DNA from: Geopsychrobacter electrodiphilus DSM 16401
Lineage (GTDB): Bacteria > Desulfobacterota > Desulfuromonadia > Desulfuromonadales > Geopsychrobacteraceae
Length of the DNA stretch: 64,000 bases
Assembly: GCF_000384395.1 (NCBI RefSeq)
Contig: NZ_ARWE01000001.1
Location: 4,066,501 to 4,130,500, forward strand
Reading direction: 5' to 3'
Part shown: piece after piece, positions 38,508 to 49,405 of the stretch
Numbering within the stretch: position 1 is the first letter of the stretch
Layout of the letters: every line of letters starts with the position of its first letter
The notes under the pieces: generated by a model
Told to the model about the DNA's origin: nothing
What the model saw: only the letters and a program-made list of their open reading frames with translations
Databases searched by the model: none
Translations under genes and position numbers: made by a program

Positions 38508-39302
38508 ATGAAGCGACTCCTCGGTCTTGGTTGTCTGTTACTGGTTCTGGCAGGTTGCCTGCCGGCACCCCAGGCACAGCTTAAAATGGAAAATGACTTC
38601 GAAGAGATGAAGCGACATCTTGCGCATCTTGAGCAAGGAAACAGTGATGGTGGCAGCCAGGCCAAGCGGCAAGTCGAAACCCTTGGACGACAGGTCGCCG
38701 AACTTCAGTCTGGACTCGACAGCTTGCGGGTTGAAGTTCAATCGATCAATGGCCGACTTGATGAGGTCAACCGTTCCAATCAGCAGAGTTCTGCCGATCT
38801 GTCGCTGGTGCGTGATGATCTGTCGATGCAGATATCGGTCCTGACCAAGCGCTTGAATGACATGGAAGCGAAGGCACTTCAAGCCCCACCTGTGGCTGAA
38901 GCGGCGACCCCTCCTGGCAAGGCTGAAGAGAACACCAGTCCTGAAATGGTCTATCAGGCGGCGCTGGAAAAGATTTTAAATGGCAGCGACTTTGAGGGGG
39001 GGCGCAAAGCTCTTGAAGCCTTCATTCAGAAATACCCTAAGCATGAATTGCAGGTTAACGCGCTGTATTGGATTGGTGAAGCTCTTTACGGTGAGAAAAA
39101 ATATGAGGCCGCGATCCTCAAATTTCAAGAGGTTATCCAGCAGCACAGTGATCACCCCAAAGCCGCTGCAGCCTTGCTGAAGCAGGGGAAAGCCTTTATG
39201 GCTCTCGGGGATAAACAGAATGCTAAAACGACCTGGAAGACGCTGGTGAAAACCTTCCCCCTGTCGCCCGAAGCGGAAAAAGCGAAACTGTTGCTCAAGT
39301 AG
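38508..39302 (+). CDS. cpoB: Tol-Pal-associated lipoprotein CpoB (YbgF)
   Basis: 264 residues. A lipobox LVLAGC (Cys18) instead of the plain signal of E. coli, a trimerising coiled coil (about 25-120) and a TPR domain (about 145-264; YPKHELQVNALYWIGEALYGEKKYEAAILKFQEVI). It coordinates peptidoglycan synthesis with Tol activity during division. It closes the tol cluster. Confidence 0.92.
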   Translation: MKRLLGLGCLLLVLAGCLPAPQAQLKMENDFEEMKRHLAHLEQGNSDGGSQAKRQVETLGRQVAELQSGLDSLRVEVQSINGRLDEVNRSNQQSSADLSLVRDDLSMQISVLTKRLNDMEAKALQAPPVAEAATPPGKAEENTSPEMVYQAALEKILNGSDFEGGRKALEAFIQKYPKHELQVNALYWIGEALYGEKKYEAAILKFQEVIQQHSDHPKAAAALLKQGKAFMALGDKQNAKTTWKTLVKTFPLSPEAEKAKLLLK

Positions 39303-39330
39303 GGGGGAGACTCAGTCAAGACGAAGAATG

Positions 39331-39365
39331 GCCCCCGTTCTGTAAAGACGGGGGTCTTTCTTTTG
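39331..39365 (+). terminator. rho-independent terminator after cpoB
   Basis: CCCCCGT pairs perfectly with ACGGGGG around a nine-base loop, followed by the T-rich TCTTTCTTTT. Confidence 0.85.
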
Positions 39366-39490
39366 GCGGGCAGGGTCCTGATCCTGCAGGGGGTTGGGAT
39401 AAAGCGCTATACTCGGTGTTGGGTCAGCGCTTGATCAAGCATAAGTTTCATATGCGTTCAGGAAGAAATAGATTTTTTAAGGATGAAGAA

Positions 39491-40333
39491 ATGAATGCCG
39501 TTCAATTCTCAGGGCTGGTTGTTGAATTAAATTACACCCTGGCAAAGATCAGTAAATATCTGAAAAATAATCAGTACGTCTATCTGCGGGCTTTTGACAG
39601 CTGGACGGATAGCTATAATGCGGTGGCCGTGCGGCTCAATGCCGATAAAACCCTGACCGTCCCGACTTTCAGGTTGAGTCCCAGCGATTATTCCCCGTCC
39701 GGCAAATCGATCAAAAAGACCAGCGTGGATAAATTTATCAAGACCATCAATCATCAGATCGTGCGCCTCGAAAACAAGATCGATGAACTGCACAGGGAGG
39801 CTGCCTTGCAGCTTGCGGAACCGCATCCGCTGGCAAGGTTTTTCCCGAGCGACCCCGATGGGAAAACTCTTGATCAGCCATCGGCAGACAAAAGAGTTGT
39901 GGTTGCCGGCCCCGGAACCGATGTCGGTCGGTCTGTTTTCCATCAAGGTATCCAACCGTTACTCGAGGCCCAGGGTTTAGGCTGGTTCAGGGTAGAGGCA
40001 TCGCCTCTGGATGAGAATGGACTCTGCGAACTCTGCCAGCAACTCTACACCTGCCGGCTGGCAATTCTCGATCTAGCCGGTCAGGACGCAAATGTCATGC
40101 TCACTCTGGGCCTGGCCTACGGGATCGGCAAACCGGTTATTCTTCTTCAGCCGCTGAACGAACCGCCGCTCGGGGGGGGCAATAACCCTGATCTCCTGTG
40201 CTATGCCGATACGGCCGAGATCAAGACCTTGCTCGGGAACCACCTGCAGGCGATGACCACTGCTTCGGGTTTGAACCTTTTACGGAGAGCGGAATGTCCA
40301 GCATCAGGGAACAAACAGGAGAACTCACTATGA
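39491..40333 (+). CDS. unrecognised two-domain protein with a nucleoside-deoxyribosyltransferase/TIR-like C-terminal domain
   Basis: 280 residues from the ATG at 39491 (AAGGA upstream). The N-terminal half (about 1-120) is charged, starts VQFSGLVVELNYTLAKISKYL, and matches nothing I know. The second half (about 135-245) shows VVVAGPGTD...LAILDLAGQDANVMLTLGLAYGIGKPVIL, the pattern of nucleoside 2-deoxyribosyltransferase-like and some TIR-like folds. The usual catalytic Glu before LG is Thr here (LTLG), so binding rather than hydrolysis is possible. Its TGA overlaps the ATG of the thioesterase (ATGA). Confidence 0.6.
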   Translation: MNAVQFSGLVVELNYTLAKISKYLKNNQYVYLRAFDSWTDSYNAVAVRLNADKTLTVPTFRLSPSDYSPSGKSIKKTSVDKFIKTINHQIVRLENKIDELHREAALQLAEPHPLARFFPSDPDGKTLDQPSADKRVVVAGPGTDVGRSVFHQGIQPLLEAQGLGWFRVEASPLDENGLCELCQQLYTCRLAILDLAGQDANVMLTLGLAYGIGKPVILLQPLNEPPLGGGNNPDLLCYADTAEIKTLLGNHLQAMTTASGLNLLRRAECPASGNKQENSL

Positions 40334-40845
40334 CCCCTAAACCAGCCAAGTATTGCAAAGAATCGAGAACCATAAAAGCCTCGATGGTTCTTCCTCCCGA
40401 TACCAACAACTACGGCACCATGTTCGGCGGCAAGGTAATGTATCATATTGACGATATTGCCGCCATTGCCGCTACCCGTCATGCGCGAACCTCGGTGGTG
40501 ACAGCATCAACCGACTCGGTCGATTTTCTGCATCCGATCCGCATCGGTCATTCGGTCTGTCTCGAAGCCTTTGTCACCTGGACCAATCGCACCTCGGTTG
40601 AAGTCTTCGTCAAGGTTGTCGCCGAAGAAATGATGAGCGGTGAGCGCACAGTCTGTGCGACCTCTTTTGTGACCTTCGTGTCGATCAACATCAATGGCGA
40701 GAAACAGATGGTTCCCGGTGTCATCCCCGAGACCGAGCTGGAAAAATTTCTGTTTGAGGGGGCTCCAGAAAGGGCCAAAAAACGCCTGGAAAAACGTGAG
40801 ATCTCAAAAGATCTGGCGGCAAGGTTCGGTACCAGGAGTTTCTGA
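40330..40845 (+). CDS. acyl-CoA thioesterase, hotdog fold (YciA/BACH type)
   Basis: 171 residues from the ATG at 40330; an upstream ATG at 40294 is possible. One hotdog domain with NNYGTMFGGKVMYHIDDIAAIAA (substrate helix, catalytic Asp) and VDFLHPIRIGHSV. It hydrolyses acyl-CoAs in the cytoplasm. The four-base overlap with the preceding gene suggests coupled translation, though a joint role is not evident. Confidence 0.87.
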   Translation: MTPKPAKYCKESRTIKASMVLPPDTNNYGTMFGGKVMYHIDDIAAIAATRHARTSVVTASTDSVDFLHPIRIGHSVCLEAFVTWTNRTSVEVFVKVVAEEMMSGERTVCATSFVTFVSININGEKQMVPGVIPETELEKFLFEGAPERAKKRLEKREISKDLAARFGTRSF

Positions 40846-40857
40846 TCGTCTGACGAT

Positions 40858-42045
40858 TCAGAGCTGAGTCTTACTCAGCAGCCGAATGCCTGCATCCAGC
40901 CCTTCGAGGGTCAGCGGGAACATCCGTCCCGCCATCAACTGGTGCACCATGCCGGTCGACTGGGTAAAGTTCCACCAGCCCTGGGGGGTCGGGTTGAGCC
41001 AGATTGCATTCTTGTAGGCATCGAGCAGACGCTGTCCCCAGACATAGCCGGCTTCCTCGTTCATATGCTCGACGCTGCCGCCGACCATCGAAATTTCATA
41101 AGGGCTCATGGCGGCATCGCCGACGAAGATCAGCTTGTAGTCGGGACCAAAAGTGTGAATCAGCTCCCAGAGGTCGATCCGCTCGGCGCGGTAGCGCTGG
41201 TTGTCACGCCAAACGCTTTCGTAAACAAAGTTGTGAAAATAGAAATATTCGAGTTGCTTGAATTCACTGCGGGCGGCGGAGAAGAGTTCTTCGCAAACCT
41301 TGATATGGTCATCCATCGAGCCACCGACATCGAAGAACAGCAGTACCTTGATCTTGTTGTGGAGTTTGGGGATCAGCTTCAGGTCGAGATAGCCAGCGTT
41401 GCTGGCGGTGGCGCGGATGGTGCCGGGCAGATCGAGAACTTCGGGAGCTCCTTCCCGTGCGAAATGCCGCAGACGCCGCAGGGCGAGCTTGATGTTGCGC
41501 GTGCCGAGTTCCACTGAACCATCGAGATTCTTAAACTCGCGCTTATCCCAGACCTTGACCGCACGCCGATGGCGTGACCCCTCCTGGCCGATGCGGATCC
41601 CTTCAGGGTTGTAGCCGTAGGCGCCGAAGGGAGAACGCCCACCGGTACCGATCCATTTGCTCCCCCCCTGGTGACGCTCTTTCTGTTCTGCGAGGCGCTG
41701 CTTCAAGGTCTCCATCAGCTTTTCAAAACCACCAAGCGCTTCGATCTGGGCCTTCTCTTCTTCGGAGAGTACCAACTCGGACAACTTGCGCAACCATTCC
41801 TCGGGAATCTGGGTCTCCAGCTCTTCGCTGAGATCAGTTATCCCCTTAAAATACTGGGCAAAAACCCGGTCGAACTTGTCGAAATGGGTCTCATCCTTGA
41901 TCAGGCAGAGCCGCGCCAAATAATAAAAATCCTCGACGCTTCCCCAGACCACCTGTTTGTCGAGAGCTTCGAGCAACCCCAGATACTCACGAATGCTGAC
42001 CGGGATCTTGGCCTGTTTCAGTTGGAGAAAAAATTCGACCAGCAT
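40858..42045 (-). CDS. CoxE-like von Willebrand factor A-domain protein
   Basis: 395 residues. The C-terminal vWA domain has a MIDAS-type DxGxS (FFDVGGSMDDH) and YFYFHNFVYESVW; the N-terminal half is helical. CoxE-type proteins work with MoxR AAA+ ATPases to load metals or cofactors into target enzymes. The moxR-like partner is ten bases upstream on the same strand. No carbon monoxide dehydrogenase or other obvious client lies in the window. Confidence 0.85.
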   Translation of the reverse strand: MLVEFFLQLKQAKIPVSIREYLGLLEALDKQVVWGSVEDFYYLARLCLIKDETHFDKFDRVFAQYFKGITDLSEELETQIPEEWLRKLSELVLSEEEKAQIEALGGFEKLMETLKQRLAEQKERHQGGSKWIGTGGRSPFGAYGYNPEGIRIGQEGSRHRRAVKVWDKREFKNLDGSVELGTRNIKLALRRLRHFAREGAPEVLDLPGTIRATASNAGYLDLKLIPKLHNKIKVLLFFDVGGSMDDHIKVCEELFSAARSEFKQLEYFYFHNFVYESVWRDNQRYRAERIDLWELIHTFGPDYKLIFVGDAAMSPYEISMVGGSVEHMNEEAGYVWGQRLLDAYKNAIWLNPTPQGWWNFTQSTGMVHQLMAGRMFPLTLEGLDAGIRLLSKTQL

Positions 42046-43119: not shown

Positions 43120-43965
43120 TTATACTGGCCGTTGAACGCTGGCTTCGATGAGTGCGATCCGGTCCTCTTCAAGGTTGCGCACCTGATTTTGCGCCATGAG
43201 CCGAAAATCGTTTCCTAGCAGCAGATGTATCCCGAGGCCTGGCATGCTCTGTTGCTTGATTTTATCCCCCATGCGGCGAAACCAGACGCGCCCCTTTTCG
43301 GTACTGTCCTGCCAGCTCAAAATCTCGAAACCCAGACACTCGAGTTGTTCGCGCAACTGCTGCGCACTGATCAGGTGGCTGATCGACGGGTCACGTGCCC
43401 AGGGGACCGGAAAAAGAACCGGTCCGCCCGCTCCGGCGAGTACATCATAGATAGCCAGCCTGCCGCCGGGTTTCAGAACGCGCCACATCTCGGCAAAAAG
43501 CCTGGCTTTGTCGGCGATATTCATCGACGTATGCTGGGTCCAGAGGAGATCGAAGCTGTTATCGGCAAAGGGGAGAGAGAGGGCGTTCCCCTGCTGGTAG
43601 GAGACCCGCGAGTCAAGCCCGAGCCGTGTCGCCAGCATGTTGGCGACGCGACAATATTCCGCGCTGAGATCGATGCCGGTAACCCGGCAACCGAATTCGG
43701 TCGCCAGACAGCGTGAGGCACCGCCAAGGCCGCTCCCGATATCCAGCACTGCCAGGCCTGCGGAGAGGTCGAGTTGGCGTGCGAATTCGAGGGTGGCCCT
43801 GCGCCCGCCGATGTGAAATTCATCAATCGGGGCCAGATCTTTGGCTGTCAGCTGATTCAAATCCAGCCCGGCCTTGGACAGTGCCGACAGCAGCGCGGTT
43901 TCAAGGCCCTGATGGGCGTAGTGCGCCTCAACGGAGCCGCAACCTGAAGCGGAAGAGGACACCAT
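43120..43965 (-). CDS. class I SAM-dependent methyltransferase
   Basis: 281 residues from the ATG at 43965, immediately after the stop of the upstream gene. Motif I VLDIGSGLGGASRCLA (about 66-81), GIDLSAEYC and LPFADNSFDLLW are typical of the UbiE/sterol-glycine methyltransferase fold. Substrate unknown. It is the last gene of the glutaconyl-CoA decarboxylase-like operon and is tightly linked to the oadA-like gene; its role there is unclear. Confidence 0.83.
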   Translation of the reverse strand: MVSSSASGCGSVEAHYAHQGLETALLSALSKAGLDLNQLTAKDLAPIDEFHIGGRRATLEFARQLDLSAGLAVLDIGSGLGGASRCLATEFGCRVTGIDLSAEYCRVANMLATRLGLDSRVSYQQGNALSLPFADNSFDLLWTQHTSMNIADKARLFAEMWRVLKPGGRLAIYDVLAGAGGPVLFPVPWARDPSISHLISAQQLREQLECLGFEILSWQDSTEKGRVWFRRMGDKIKQQSMPGLGIHLLLGNDFRLMAQNQVRNLEEDRIALIEASVQRPV

Positions 43966-43966
43966 C

Positions 43967-46027
43967 TCAGGCCAGAACCAGCAAGGTTTGCCCGATATCG
44001 ACCGCGTCACCCTCTTTGATGAGCAGTTGGCTGATGGTCCCATCGCGCTCGGCAATGATCTCGTTCTCCATCTTCATCGCTTCGAGAACCAGCAGCAGAT
44101 CGCCTTCCTGAACCTGCTGTCCTGCCGTCACCTCCAGCTTCCAGATGTTGCCCGCCAGCGGAGCGACCACTCCGTTGACAACTGCAGTGTCGTCAGGTGC
44201 AGGCGCTGCGGCAACCGGATCCGCGGGACTACGCTTCTCGCCGGAAAAGGCGAGAAGCGCAGCGCCGATCTCAACCGCATCCCCCTCCTTGACCAGGACC
44301 TCAGCCACCAGGCCGGCTTTCTCGGCGACGACTTCATGTTCCATCTTCATCGCTTCGAGGACAAAGAGCAGATCCCCTTCTTCAACGGTCTGTCCCGGGG
44401 TCACTTCAACCTTCCAGATATTTCCGGCCAGGTGAGCAGTCAGGGTGTCTGCGACAACCGGTGTCGCCGCGGTCGCTTGAGTTTCCGCGCTCGCCGCAAC
44501 CGCCGCGGCCGCTGCGGCTGCACCTGCAGCTTCGACCACCTGCACAACAAAAGTTTTGCCACCGCCGGTTACCGTGTAGATTTCAGCGCCGGCGATCGCC
44601 GCAGCCTGAGGCGCGGCGACCGCGGGCTCTGCGGAGGGGACGGGTTCAAAGGCCGCCGGGTTGTGGCGATTTTCGATGAATTTTAATCCGACCTGCTGGA
44701 ATAAGGCGTAGGTCAGGACGTCCTCGATCTCGTTTTCGGCCAGACTGAGCGCTTTATCGGCCGCGATGCCGCGCAGTTCGGCGGTGAGCCGCTCCACCTC
44801 GGGCTCGAGCAGATCCGCCGGGCGACAGGTGATCGGGGTCGCCCCTTTCAGAATCTTTACCTGCAGCTCTTTGTTGACCGGCGCCGGGGTCGCGCCGTAT
44901 TCCCCTTTGAGGACGGCGGTGGTCTCCTTGGTGACGGCCTTGTAGCGCTCACCGGCGAGGATATTCAGCACCGCCTGGCTGCCGACGATCTGCGAGGTCG
45001 GTGTGACCAGCGGCAGAAAGCCGAGGTCTTCGCGCACGAAGGGGATTTCCTGCAAGACCTGATCGATCTTGTCACTGGCCCCCTGCTCGCGCAGTTGGCT
45101 CTCCATGTTGGTCAGCATGCCGCCGGGGACCTGAGCCAGGATAATCCGCGCGTCGATCCCTTTGAGGGATCCTTCAAACTTGGCGTATTTTTTCCGTACT
45201 TCGTGAAAATAGGCGGCGATCTCCTGCAACAGCGGAAGATCCAGGCCGGTGGCCCGTTCGGTCTCGGCGGTGATGGCGACCAGCGCCTCAGTGGGGGAAT
45301 GAGCGTAGGTCATGCTCATGGAGGAGATCCCGGTGTCGACCCCGTCGATCCCGGCTTCGATCGCTTTTAAATAAGCCGCGGTCGACATGCCGGTGGTGGC
45401 GTGGCAGTGCATATGGATCGGAATCGTCAGGTTTTTCTTGAGTTTTTTGACCAATTCGTAGGCGGCGTAGGGGGTTATCAGACCGGCCATATCCTTGATA
45501 CAGAGCGAGTGAGCGCCCATATCCTCAATGAATTTGGCCAGGTCGACCCATTTGGCCAGGGTATGCACCGGACTGACGGTGTAGGAGATGCACCCCTGAG
45601 CGTGCTTGTCCTGTTTGATGACCGCTTTGATCGCGGTTTCGAGATTGCGCGGATCGTTCATGGCATCGAACACCCGGAACACATCGATGCCGCCAGCCGC
45701 TGCGCGCTCGACGAATTTTTCGACTACGTCATCGGCATAGTGGCGATAGCCGAGGATATTCTGGCCGCGAAACAGCATCTGTTGGGGCGTGTTGGGCATG
45801 GCCTTTTTCAAAGCGCGCAGCCGCTCCCAGGGGTCCTCGCCCAGATACCGGATACAGGAGTCGAAGGTCGCGCCGCCCCAGGTTTCCAGAGACCAGTAAC
45901 CGACCTGGTCGAGCTTTTCGGCGATCGGCAGCATGTCGTCCAGGCGCATGCGAGTGGCAAACAGGGACTGGTGTGCATCGCGCAGGACAAGTTCGGTGAT
46001 TCTCAGGGGGGTTTTTGATTTGCTCAT
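43967..46027 (-). CDS. oadA: oxaloacetate decarboxylase alpha / transcarboxylase 5S-like protein with two biotin domains
   Basis: 686 residues from the ATG at 46027 (GAGGCGGA upstream). The N-terminal HMGL-like carboxyltransferase ([18 protein letters not shown]; metal ligands in [12 protein letters not shown]) and the conserved carboxylase domain match OadA and the 5S subunit of transcarboxylase. After an Ala-rich linker come two complete biotinyl domains with AMKM lysines at 561 and 652, the second 35 residues from the end as usual. Two carriers in tandem are unusual. Possible partners are pyruvate/oxaloacetate and the neighbouring gcdA. Confidence 0.88.
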
Positions 46028-46083
46028 ATATCCGCCTCGCAATCTTGATCCGTCTGGGGATTAAAATCTATAAAAACCGGGTG

Positions 46084-46119
46084 GGAACCTTCCCCGGAGA
46101 GAGGGTCGGGGAAGGTTCC
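46084..46119 (-). other. strong hairpin with T-run between gcdA and oadA (attenuator-like)
   Basis: GGAACCTTCCCCG pairs perfectly over 13 bases with CGGGGAAGGTTCC around a ten-base loop. On the minus (transcribed) strand it is followed after seven bases by GGTTTTTA. It looks like a terminator inside the operon and probably lowers oadA expression relative to gcdA, or protects the upstream mRNA. Confidence 0.75.
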
Positions 46120-46129
46120 GCCGCCGGGC

Positions 46130-47887
46130 CTAACCTTTTATGATGCGCGGCAACAGCATCTGATGTACCGGAGTGATCGATCTGGGGTTCTGGTAGTTGG
46201 CCCCGGTGAAGGCCTTGATGTAGTTGCGCAGCTCGGTCAGCGCGACGATCTCGTCGACAAATCCGGTCTTGGCGCAGTAGGCCGGACGCGACTTGTCCTG
46301 ATAATCCTGGATCATCTGGTTCATCTTATCCAGGGTCGGTGTGAGGTCATTGCCGGCGTCATCCTCTTTGACCAGCCGCCGCGCGTAAGACGCGGCTGCG
46401 GCGGTTTCACCGTGCATGACATAAATTTCGGTGATCGGAGTGCCGAGGGTGAAGGCGTTGTTATTGTTGGCCTGTGGGCCACACATGATGTAATGGGCCG
46501 CGGCGGTCCCTTTGCGCAACACGACGCACATCATCGAGAGTTCGGTCTGTTCGATGGAATAGACCAGTGACTGTCCCAGCGCCAGCAGTTCCGCCTCTTC
46601 GGCGAGATCGCCGACATCGATACCGGTGGTATCCTGCAGCCAGACGATCGGCAGGTTGTCGCGGCCGCAGAGGGTGACAAACTCACCCTGCTTGATCAGT
46701 CCCTCGCGGTAGTGCTTGCCGCCGACCCCAGGATAGGCTCCTTCGGCATAAGCCGGGTAGCCGGGGAAGACCCCCTGCTGGTTACCGATAAAGGCGACCG
46801 GAAAACCATCGATCTTGGCGATGCCGGTGAAGACCTCGCGCCCGTAGTCGGGACGGTATTCCATGAACTCACTGTTGTCCGTGAGTCGCGCCAGAATCTG
46901 GATGGCATCGTAGGGGCGCTTCTGGTTGGCCGGTAAAAGCAGATTAAGCTCCTCGGTCGGAAGTCTGGGTTCGGCAGGTAGAGCGACCCGGAACATGGTC
47001 GGATCGTAGGCCGGCATCATGCGCATGTAGTCTTTGATGCCGTCCAATACCCCCTGCTCGGTATCATGGACTTCACGGAAGTAGGCGGTCTGGTCGAAGT
47101 GGGTTTCAACCCGCCCCGGCGCCTTGCCCTGGAAATTTTTGGTCCCCTCAATAAGTGCCTGAGCGGCCTCTTCATCAATATAACCTTTGGGATTCATGCC
47201 ACCGACAATACCGGCGCCGCCGACGGCGATGTTTGCATCTTTGTGCGCCAGCAGGATGGTCGGGCTGATCCCCTGATAGCCGCCACCGGCCGGATTGGTG
47301 CCGTAGATGCCGTTGAGGATCGGGATCCCCAGATGGTTAAGATCGGCGTGACGGTAGAAGGGTGCACCGCTTGAGCGCCGCCCGGCGTAGACCGTCTCTT
47401 GCTCCATCAGCTTTACGCCGCTGCAGTTGGTCAACCAGACCAGCGGCACGTTGAGACGCTTGGCCATTTCAGTGACCATCAAAATATTTTCGGATTGTCC
47501 AGCGATCCAGGCTCCGGCCATGACCTTGTTGTCAAAGCCGATAATCACCGCCCACTTGCCTTCGATCTTACCGATGCCGTTGACCACACCGGTGCAGCCT
47601 TCTTCGTTATCCGTCGGGTTGTAAAGGCTGTGCAGCGGGCACCAGGTGCCGGCGTCGACCAGGTAGTCGAGGCGGTCGTAGATGGTCATGCCGCCGCGTG
47701 AATGAACTTTTTCCGCCGGAATTCCGGCGTTCTTGACGCGCAGAATTTCTTCGGCGAGGATCGCTTCCTGCTGCTTGATCAGTTCGGCGTTCTCCTGGGA
47801 ACGGCGAATTTCTCCGTCCCTGAGTTCCTTGCCGATGGCGGGCATGGTCTCGAAATATTGGCGCAATGGCGTTTGTTTGCGTGTCAT
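46130..47887 (-). CDS. gcdA: glutaconyl-CoA decarboxylase alpha subunit-like carboxyltransferase
   Basis: 585 residues, close to the roughly 587 of GcdA from Acidaminococcus. From memory the sequence follows GcdA closely: LVWLTNCSGVKLMEQE, GIYGTNPAGGGYQGISPT, VGGAGIVGGMNPKG, IVWLQDTTGIDVGD and RKGTAAAHYIMCGPQ. It consists of two crotonase-like halves and transfers the carboxyl group from glutaconyl-CoA to biotin. Methylmalonyl-CoA carboxyltransferases are the main alternative but are usually shorter (about 510). It follows the free biotin carrier gene. Confidence 0.85.
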   Translation of the reverse strand: MTRKQTPLRQYFETMPAIGKELRDGEIRRSQENAELIKQQEAILAEEILRVKNAGIPAEKVHSRGGMTIYDRLDYLVDAGTWCPLHSLYNPTDNEEGCTGVVNGIGKIEGKWAVIIGFDNKVMAGAWIAGQSENILMVTEMAKRLNVPLVWLTNCSGVKLMEQETVYAGRRSSGAPFYRHADLNHLGIPILNGIYGTNPAGGGYQGISPTILLAHKDANIAVGGAGIVGGMNPKGYIDEEAAQALIEGTKNFQGKAPGRVETHFDQTAYFREVHDTEQGVLDGIKDYMRMMPAYDPTMFRVALPAEPRLPTEELNLLLPANQKRPYDAIQILARLTDNSEFMEYRPDYGREVFTGIAKIDGFPVAFIGNQQGVFPGYPAYAEGAYPGVGGKHYREGLIKQGEFVTLCGRDNLPIVWLQDTTGIDVGDLAEEAELLALGQSLVYSIEQTELSMMCVVLRKGTAAAHYIMCGPQANNNNAFTLGTPITEIYVMHGETAAAASYARRLVKEDDAGNDLTPTLDKMNQMIQDYQDKSRPAYCAKTGFVDEIVALTELRNYIKAFTGANYQNPRSITPVHQMLLPRIIKG

Positions 47888-47916
47888 GGCTGTCCCTTTC
47901 TCGATGACGACAAGCG

Positions 47917-47948
47917 GCAGCCGGATGTCTGAAGATTAGCCCGGCTGC
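47917..47948 (-). other. intercistronic hairpin between the biotin carrier gene and gcdA
   Basis: GCAGCCGG and CCGGCTGC form a perfect eight-pair stem around a 16-base loop. No T-run follows on the minus strand, so mRNA processing or stability is more likely than termination. Confidence 0.5.
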
Positions 47949-47998
47949 TCGATGTCGAACAATTTATAAAAATGAGTTGATGAGCGATAACCTCAAGC

Positions 47999-48211
47999 TC
48001 ATTCAATCACGATCAGTACGTCATCCTCATTGACCGCGTCCCCTTCTTTAACCTTGATGGTTTTGACAGTCCCGGCATCGTCGCAGTAGATGGGCGTCTC
48101 CATTTTCAAGGCCTCGAGAATGACCAATTCATCGTCCAGCTCAACTTTATCGCCCACGGCCACGAGGATTTTCCAGACATTACCGGCGATGGGTGCAATC
48201 AGTTCAGGCAT
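47999..48211 (-). CDS. free biotin carboxyl carrier protein
   Basis: 70 residues that are nothing but a biotinyl domain: APIAGNVWKILVAVGDKV, the biotin site EALKMETP with Lys36, and a symmetrical second half. The usual AMKM is ALKM here, a tolerated variant. It should carry carboxybiotin between GcdA and the membrane beta subunit, like the 1.3S or gamma subunits of related complexes, but without a proline/alanine-rich linker. Confidence 0.88.
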   Translation of the reverse strand: MPELIAPIAGNVWKILVAVGDKVELDDELVILEALKMETPIYCDDAGTVKTIKVKEGDAVNEDDVLIVIE

Positions 48212-48259
48212 CGTAATTCTCCTTTGTCAGGTGTATTAAGCTGTAGCAGCTAAAACAAA

Positions 48260-49378
48260 TTATCCAAGATTCTTCAAAAGGATGGCCGCAGCCACCACGG
48301 TGCCGATCACGCCAGCCACGTTGGGGCCCATGGCGTGCATCAGTAGATAGTTGCGCCGATTGGCTTCGGAGCCGACCTTATGCACACAGCGGGCGGCCAT
48401 GGGCACGGCGGAGACGCCGGCCGCGCCGATAAGCGGATTGATCTTGTTTTTGAGAAACAGGTTCATGAATTTGGCCATCAAGAGTCCCGAGGCGGTGCTG
48501 ATAACGAAGGCGAAAAGGCCGAGGAAGAAGATAAACAGGACCTTGGGGTTCAAAAACACTTCGGCGGTCATAGTCGCCCCGACTGACAGTCCGAGGAAGA
48601 TGGTGACAATATTCATCAGCTCGTTGGAAGCCGCCTTGCTCAGCCGTTCAACAACGCCCGACTCTTTGAAGAGGTTGCCGAGCATCAGCATTGAGATCAA
48701 GGGCGCCGAGGCTGGCACCACCAGCATGATGATCATGGCGGTAATGATCGGAAAACAGATCTTCTGCAAGCGGCTGACCGGTGCGAGTTTGGGCATGACA
48801 ATCTTGCGTTCGGCATCGCTGGTCAACAGTTTCATGATCGGCGGTTGAATGATCGGGACTAGGGCCATGTAGGCGTAGGCCGAGACCGCGGTGGCGCCGA
48901 GCAGATGGGGCGCCAGCTTGGAGCCGAGGTAGATGGTGGTCGGCCCGTCGGCGCCACCGATAATGGCGATGGCGGCCGATTCTTTCAGATCGAAGCCGAA
49001 CAGTACAGCGGCAAAGAAGGTGACGTAAAGACCGACCTGGGCTCCGGCGCCGAGCATCAGCGTTTTCGGGTTCGAGATCAGCGGTCCGAAATCGATCATC
49101 GCGCCCAGGCCGAGGAAGATCAATGGCGGGATAATATCCAGGTCGATGCCGTATTTATAGAAGAACCAGATCAGTCCATGTTCCGGTTCCATCAGATAAG
49201 TCAGCGGCAGGTTGACGACCAGAATGCCGAAGGCGATCGGCAGTAGCAACAGCGGCTCGTACTGTTTCTTGATGGCGAGATAAAAGAGCACAAAGGCGAT
49301 CAGCCACATAACCAGATTGCCTAAACTCAAATTCATCAGACCGCTTGAAAAGATGATGTCCTGTAAGATTTTAATCAT
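48260..49378 (-). CDS. gcdB: sodium-translocating decarboxylase beta subunit (GcdB/OadB/MmdB family)
   Basis: 372 residues from the ATG at 49378. Many hydrophobic spans and the conserved GGADGPTTIYLGSKLAP segment with the sodium-site aspartate, and the C-terminal ISVA-type GAAGVSAVPMAARCVHKVG, PNVAGVIGTVVAAAILL. The family decarboxylates carboxybiotin in the membrane and expels Na+. Position between gcdA and a gamma-like peptide supports assignment to the glutaconyl-CoA enzyme; sequence alone does not separate Gcd, Oad and Mmd. Confidence 0.9.
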   Translation of the reverse strand: MIKILQDIIFSSGLMNLSLGNLVMWLIAFVLFYLAIKKQYEPLLLLPIAFGILVVNLPLTYLMEPEHGLIWFFYKYGIDLDIIPPLIFLGLGAMIDFGPLISNPKTLMLGAGAQVGLYVTFFAAVLFGFDLKESAAIAIIGGADGPTTIYLGSKLAPHLLGATAVSAYAYMALVPIIQPPIMKLLTSDAERKIVMPKLAPVSRLQKICFPIITAMIIMLVVPASAPLISMLMLGNLFKESGVVERLSKAASNELMNIVTIFLGLSVGATMTAEVFLNPKVLFIFFLGLFAFVISTASGLLMAKFMNLFLKNKINPLIGAAGVSAVPMAARCVHKVGSEANRRNYLLMHAMGPNVAGVIGTVVAAAILLKNLG

Positions 49379-49405
49379 GACTTTGCACTCCAAAAATCAA
49401 GCGGT

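Follow-up and report, generated by a model that had tools for sequence, protein, structure and literature searches.

TIR-like and deoxyribosyltransferase-like domains are familiar enzymatic modules, with roles in immunity and in nucleotide metabolism. In the 5'-nucleotide N-glycosidase DNPH1 (Rcl), E104 is the nucleophile and D80 the acid, and dimerisation takes place via the third helix (PMC10603095). For MilB, another enzyme of this kind, the E103A variant is reported to be inactive, yet still to bind hmCMP (PMC4081090); loss of the Glu thus need not abolish binding. The NADase site of the TIR-STING protein SfSTING, whose catalytic Glu is E84, is completed by D110 of the other chain (PMC9402430), so that contributions in trans exist in this fold. 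Among the acyl-CoA hydrolases, ACOT12 is described as raised in activity by ATP, inhibited by ADP and lowered in activity by its START domain (PMC7689297). A related idea is found in PMC13142454, which is on a TIR immune protein of bacteria that was domesticated in eukaryotes. A deoxyribosyltransferase- or TIR-like partner of an acyl-CoA thioesterase did not occur among the literature matches listed, and the titles and abstract beginnings retrieved on pseudoenzyme or Glu-less TIR domains contained nothing on the protein family described here.

This family is represented by a gene of Geopsychrobacter electrodiphilus DSM 16401, located in a stretch of 64,000 nucleotides that was analysed as a whole and is referred to as the window. 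The gene codes for a protein of two predicted domains, in the following termed the accessory protein, and lies directly upstream of an acyl-CoA thioesterase gene. The features of the locus are, in window coordinates:

39330..39356, plus strand: terminator-like stem-loop with a T-rich tail, 3' of tol-pal-type genes (stem-loop scan compared with shuffled sequence)
39491..40333, plus strand: gene of the two-domain accessory protein, without a curated family (280 amino acids plus stop; P0001)
39491..39820, plus strand: codons of the N-terminal three-helix domain predicted by AlphaFold2, residues 1–110, with most invariant residues at 23–49 and 60–79
39884..40267, plus strand: coding part of the C-terminal alpha/beta domain, residues 132–259, with a predicted DNPH1/NDT/TIR-like fold
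40028..40030, plus strand: Glu180, acidic residue found in all 15 copies at a distance of 25 residues from the later position 205; putative equivalent of MilB Asp78
40103..40105, plus strand: Thr205, where the nucleophilic Glu of the active enzymes would stand (Ala 13, Thr 1, Ile 1 in 15 of 15 copies)
40330..40845, plus strand: hotdog-fold acyl-CoA thioesterase (4HBT), joined by an ATGA overlap; closest solved relatives are acyl-CoA hydrolases

In the window sequence, the reading frame extends from ATG 39491 to TGA 40331–40333 (280 amino acids), with AAGGA located 7 bases 5' of the start codon. A longer start at GTG 39416 is possible; the homologues begin at the Met of 39491. The ATG of the thioesterase gene (40330–40332) overlaps the TGA of the accessory gene in the ATGA at 40330–40333, and residues 194–218 of the protein read DLAGQDANVMLTLGLAYGIGKPVIL. 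The sequence bears out the first-pass annotation in the reading frame and its position, in this residue pattern, in the Thr at the place of the Glu and in the ATGA overlap. A stem-loop scan detected six sites, as compared to a mean of 2.3 in the shuffled stretch, and the site at 39330–39356 has the longest stem (10 pairs). As it parts the accessory gene from the upstream genes, which we take to be tolB, pal and cpoB (Pfam shows just OmpA and TPR for the latter two products), the accessory and thioesterase genes look like a unit of their own. A promoter scan of positions 38900–41000 gave two sites, both on the opposite strand and about the number expected by chance.

Of the 136 genomes of the order, 15 contain a full or nearly full copy of the gene: eight of genus g1 (the window genome included), four of family f12 and three of family f5. 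The ninth genome of g1 (G003) is without the gene. In a 16th genome (G112) a match covered the C-terminal domain only, and this protein (L034, with AbiJ_NTD5) was counted as a distant relative and not as a family member. Given these 15 carriers, the absence of homologues that would have marked the gene as spurious does not apply. The 12 other proteins in the alignment (A1; one of them a partial piece) share 41–63% identity with the window protein. In five pairs, dN/dS was 0.10–0.18 for the N-terminal and 0.13–0.36 for the C-terminal domain; these values of 0.10–0.36 over both domains show that both halves are kept by purifying selection. Comparison of the copies L048 (G102) and L049 (G103) yielded a dS of 0.95 in the N-terminal but 0.12 in the C-terminal domain, a contrast that suggests recent recombination inside the gene. 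The copies of G001 (L043) and G007 (L039; L104 is a fragment of the latter) are interrupted by either real decay or assembly error, and the neighbouring thioesterase is matched over all or almost all of its length.

In 277 genomes of the class outside the order, all matches began past the N-terminal domain and no full-length copy was detected. A single-protein query of contigs from 84,980 species retrieved seven loci, whose titles name Desulfuromonadales, Geobacteraceae, Geopsychrobacter or Deltaproteobacteria. The profile of the N-terminal domain matched four of 395 phylum-drawn genomes and the whole profile (E up to 1e-15) two of 297 genomes in another phylum draw, in each case known carriers only. 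Five matches at E up to 1 among 72,556 plasmid records (query coverage 25–37%, identity 23–30%) were rejected as relatives, and none of 60 pattern stretches in viral contigs was confirmed as one. With E up to 1, PHROGs gave three matches; that with the lowest value (2.6e-4, residues 148–220) belongs to a function-unknown family. A candidate second copy in the own genome, the only match found (E 0.16), contains internal stops and was dismissed.

The AlphaFold2 model of the whole protein (mean pLDDT 82.7, pTM 0.52) contains an alpha/beta domain at approximately residues 132–259. Its best solved match in Foldseek was a nucleoside deoxyribosyltransferase (E 3.3e-5, predicted model), and VIA aligned the predicted model with DNPH1 (Z 14.6, rmsd 2.1, 121 residues), MilB (Z 13.2, rmsd 2.7, 126 residues), several NDTs (Z 11.5–12.2, rmsd 2.5–3.0, 113–121 residues; one at Z 12.2 with rmsd 2.5 over 113 residues, CtNDT at Z 12.0 with rmsd 2.9 over 119) and SfSTING (Z 12.0, rmsd 2.6, 114 residues). 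As predicted, residues 132–259 have the fold of DNPH1, MilB, nucleoside deoxyribosyltransferases and TIR domains. The earlier guess of a deoxyribosyltransferase- or TIR-related fold thus holds for the predicted model in both searches, which did not return the contrary outcome of a fold unrelated to Rossmann-like nucleotide binders. On the sequence level, the window protein scores 13.7 bits with PF05014 and does not reach the curated cut-off of 28.8, and nine of 13 family members match this model with E values no higher than 0.5, the lowest being 0.00033. PF05014 found nothing in the own genome at E up to 0.1, a weak result since the same search misses the window protein too, and the two PDB matches of a single-sequence query (E 0.76 and 2) were taken as chance. 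No model of Pfam, NCBIfam or PADLOC takes the accessory protein at a firm score.

When the PDB was searched with the family profile, the top match was MilB E103A (4ohb; weak, E 0.15), with residue 103 falling on column 205. Ala occupies this column in 13 of the 15 copies, Ile in one and Thr in the window copy, and the Glu is retained in all 11 distant relatives from the class search (nine by profile alignment, L100 and L101 by the motif in their sequence). The loss therefore marks the family and not the window copy. The first-pass annotation had correctly noted the lack of the catalytic Glu, which is absent family-wide, and had correctly read Thr in its place, but this Thr is peculiar to the window copy. 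Since none of the 15 copies retains the nucleophile, catalysis by the usual N-glycosidase/NADase mechanism is very unlikely. The invariant Glu180 precedes column 205 by the same 25 residues that separate D78 and E103 in MilB, and may be the equivalent of the general acid Asp (DNPH1 D80, MilB D78). The columns that a weak alignment equates with MilB Ser97 and Gly99 contain Ala (n = 8), Ser (n = 4) and Asp (n = 3) at 199, and Asn (n = 9), Gly (n = 2), Glu (n = 2), Lys and His (n = 1 each) at 201; column 142 is non-aromatic in all 15 copies, so that no aromatic residue follows the Pro of the first strand. The variation of these ligand-contact columns speaks against a conserved classical nucleotide pocket. 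In and just after helix 200–211, residues M203, L206, G207, A209, G213 and K214 are invariant in 15 of 15 copies; in and around helix 175–187, E180 is invariant and D174, L181, C182, L185, C188 and R189 are nearly so.

The N-terminal domain, predicted alone by AlphaFold2 as residues 1–121 (pLDDT 91.6, pTM 0.79), forms helices at 3–26, 32–52 and 76–109. Among residues 1–125, 25 do not vary in any copy that extends over them, 22 of these at 23–49 and 60–79, and the mean pairwise identity of 12 sequences is 58.5% for residues 1–110 compared to 53% for residues 132–245. Neither Pfam (window protein and family members) nor NCBIfam (window protein) gave a match over the cut-off in this region, and Foldseek found nothing better than E 1.3. 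The best VIA match was a chain of 9had, a dust mite allergen with a designed binder (Z 10.6; next 7.9 and below); according to the tool's note, such Z values for helical bundles can reflect a common arrangement, and the fold is not claimed to be new. The model confidently predicts a three-helix domain; it has a conserved cap and, within the genomes searched, is specific to this family. Its description as a novel region in the first reading agrees with these results, as it was seen in this family alone wherever it was sought.

A profile search yielded 13 proteins, of which 11 were kept as distant relatives (an earlier regular-expression pass had given two). The other two, L102 and L103 (E 0.007 and 0.009), were set aside because their sequences resemble, in our reading, those of an acyltransferase and a sensor kinase. 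Pfam and PADLOC scans covered ten of the 11, all but L099. Nine of these ten match the PADLOC TIR effector PDLC00733 (E 1.6e-6 to 4.3e-15; L101 is without a match), one contains AbiJ_NTD5 and one TPR-S. These matches and fused domains point to a descent of the C-terminal domain from TIR-like domains common in defence proteins; its nearest sequence relatives have NPNVxYELG-like motifs. The window protein itself matches PDLC00733 at E 0.0059, and seven of 13 family members do so weakly at E up to 0.01 (best 6.6e-5). The protein at 1141–1890 of L034, in which AbiJ_NTD5 is fused to a TIR/deoxyribosyltransferase-like domain with intact Glu, is likely an abortive-infection protein. At 1192–2361 of L095, a TIR-like domain protein is encoded whose C-terminal part matches PADLOC PD-T4-6 (E 1.4e-23).

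Seven neighbours in the window carry the Pfam domains OmpA, TPR, VWA, AAA, methyltransferase, carboxyltransferase and oxaloacetate-decarboxylase-type beta subunit, none of them a defence domain. Three of nine window genes match PADLOC models at E up to 1e-5 (the OmpA-domain, AAA and methyltransferase proteins), which are read as generic-domain matches. Neighbours in the other genomes were compared by clustering only. To nucleotide signalling and immunity, given in the first reading as uses of such folds, only the distant relatives of the C-terminal domain point, and not the neighbours in the window.

The partner gene codes for an acyl-CoA hydrolase of the hotdog fold. Its product reaches 61.5 bits with 4HBT (cut-off 20.6, E 9.7e-17) and matches PDB entry 7cz3 over residues 6–163 (E 1.8e-45); the acyl-CoA hydrolases 1y7u and 1vpm are also close, and ACOT12 is among the PDB matches (E 6e-29). 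It does not reach the cut-off of the YciA equivalog model (NF007970, 57.7 bits compared to 162). In 14 of the 15 carriers (window included), which come from three families, the accessory gene is followed at once by a thioesterase gene of the same strand. The upstream genes differ: they are of the tol-pal type in the window, G004 and G005, of another cluster in G002, G006 and G007, of a third in G044, G045 and G056, and others elsewhere. This neighbour analysis of the homologues reveals the thioesterase as the conserved element. As the downstream neighbours are partly common to the families, some of the linkage may be inherited gene order. In the 13 other adjacent pairs, a one-base overlap occurs in two and gaps of 33–187 bases in 11, two of which were counted from the early stop of an interrupted copy; AGGAG precedes the thioesterase start in 11 of the 13. 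Of the two possibilities first considered for the ATGA coupling, chance or a functional unit, the adjacency kept in 14 of 15 carriers favours the latter, but the overlap is rarely kept.

In the thioesterase tree, the proteins of the carriers and that of G003 form one side of a branch with a support of 96/97. Within f12, carriers have thioesterases 77–86% identical to that of the window as compared to 67–70% in non-carriers, whereas the TolB-type protein has 60–62% in both. The window genome contains 13 matches to the 4HBT family, which indicates that the choice of partner is specific. In G003, the TolB-type and thioesterase genes are located on one contig, and the surrounding 7.7 kb contained no match to the accessory protein up to E 10; the gene that precedes the thioesterase resembles, in our reading, the window's cpoB-type gene. 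The thioesterase here directly follows the tol-pal-type genes (L081, 5160–5320), a natural empty site. In G008 the accessory gene and the thioesterase gene are on different contigs. The thioesterase therefore does not need the accessory protein: the link is more than chance, but it is not obligatory.

Against a tight partnership, the pairwise distances of the two proteins correlate only weakly, with a Pearson coefficient of 0.28, reached by 88 of 2000 label permutations, and a Spearman coefficient of 0.16 (p 0.10); the mean distance is 0.47 for the accessory protein compared to 0.20 for the thioesterase. One f12 and one f1 copy are joined in the thioesterase tree at 98/95, with a long-branch warning and a midpoint root. 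The accessory-protein tree is largely unresolved and places this f12 copy next to two further copies of its own family (85/90). A transfer of the pair between families is possible. The minus strand of the window at 43120–49393 contains methyltransferase, carboxyltransferase and oxaloacetate-decarboxylase-type beta subunit genes; in three f12 genomes this carboxyltransferase has 90% identity, as against 60–61% for their TolB-type protein.

We tentatively favour, at a probability of about 0.4, a reading in which the dead TIR/deoxyribosyltransferase-like domain assists the acyl-CoA thioesterase without being an enzyme itself, as a regulatory or scaffold partner. The gene product would be a small two-domain protein accessory to the adjoining enzyme, with a C-terminal domain derived from TIR-like or deoxyribosyltransferase-like domains of defence and nucleotide metabolism that has lost its nucleophilic Glu and, as a consequence, is not expected to cleave N-glycosidic bonds by double displacement in the usual way. 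Selection would keep this domain for a role other than catalysis, probably that of a dimerising scaffold which possibly still binds a nucleotide-like ligand such as NAD, an NMP or the adenosine end of CoA. Together with its N-terminal helical domain, the protein may hold the thioesterase or adjust its activity; nucleotide control of ACOT12, a relative of the partner, is a precedent. Points against this reading are the empty site of G003, the separate genes of G008, the interrupted copies, the weak distance correlation, the varying contact positions and the partly common downstream neighbourhood. If true, the family would show in a clear-cut way how a fold of immune enzymes can be put to regulatory use, in a simple two-gene test system. 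A bolder version, which we regard as unlikely, sees the domesticated immune-type domain as a nucleotide/CoA-sensing thioesterase subunit whose genes travel as a pair among families of the Desulfuromonadales; it would link nucleotide status to CoA-thioester turnover.

A more restricted reading, which shares ground with the favoured one and which we consider doubtful, is a pure scaffold without a small-molecule ligand, which would dimerise via helix 200–211 and bind a protein, perhaps the thioesterase, with its N-terminal cap. It would account for the concentration of much of the C-terminal conservation in helices 200–211 and 175–187 while several ligand-contact positions vary, and helix 200–211 would, by the order of elements in the model, be the third of the domain, as is the dimer helix of DNPH1. 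The invariant E180, however, occupies the place of the ligand-contacting Asp78 of MilB, if the spacing is a guide. The same residue could be invoked for a protein that is still an enzyme, with Glu180 or a residue of another chain taking over the role of the missing Glu and the substrate being perhaps an unusual one. Purifying selection on the C-terminal domain and the precedent of SfSTING would agree with this, but every copy has Ala, Thr or Ile at position 205, other contact positions have drifted, and a Glu-to-Ala change at the equivalent place inactivates MilB (PMC4081090); we consider continued catalysis highly improbable.

That the two products never meet and merely share a pathway or promoter, the accessory protein having an unrelated cytoplasmic role, would explain why the gene is absent in G003 and the pair separate in G008, and why 11 of the 13 other pairs have gaps of 33–187 bases and 11 of 13 an AGGAG before the thioesterase. 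This is rather unlikely, as 14 of the 15 carriers have the gene paired with a thioesterase of one and the same group, despite 13 4HBT matches in the window genome. A diverged abortive-infection-type defence protein, in which the dead TIR-like domain acts as sensor or decoy and the thioesterase is passive or a lipid effector, is suggested by the PDLC00733 matches of nine of ten scanned distant relatives (AbiJ_NTD5 and TPR-S in one each) and the weak ones of seven of 13 family members (best 6.6e-5). Patchy presence, faster evolution than that of the thioesterase (0.47 versus 0.20), one absence with the thioesterase retained and two interrupted copies would also suit such a protein. Against it stand the seven window neighbours, which are not defence genes by Pfam, the generic nature ascribed to the PADLOC matches, the lack of a confirmed relative among the viral contigs and a partner that resembles acyl-CoA hydrolases, and we judge it quite improbable.

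The non-enzymatic partner of a thioesterase that we favour thus resembles the described systems in parts. With DNPH1 and MilB it shares the alpha/beta fold (Z 14.6 and 13.2, predicted model) and, by a weak alignment, the position of MilB residue 103 on column 205, but its family is without the nucleophilic Glu, has an extra N-terminal helical domain and seems not to keep the MilB positions Ser97 and Gly99 (columns 199 and 201, weak alignment). NDTs of PF05014 have the predicted fold and a weak profile similarity in common with it, whereas it remains under their cut-off and has no nucleophile. Unlike the TIR-like effectors (PDLC00733, TIR-STING), which it resembles in fold and which most of the nearest relatives of its C-terminal domain match, the family lacks the catalytic Glu and the aromatic residue after the Pro of the first strand, and the neighbours of the window protein are not sensor or defence genes. 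The partner gene, in turn, is like those of the hotdog acyl-CoA hydrolases (7cz3, 1y7u, 1vpm and ACOT12).
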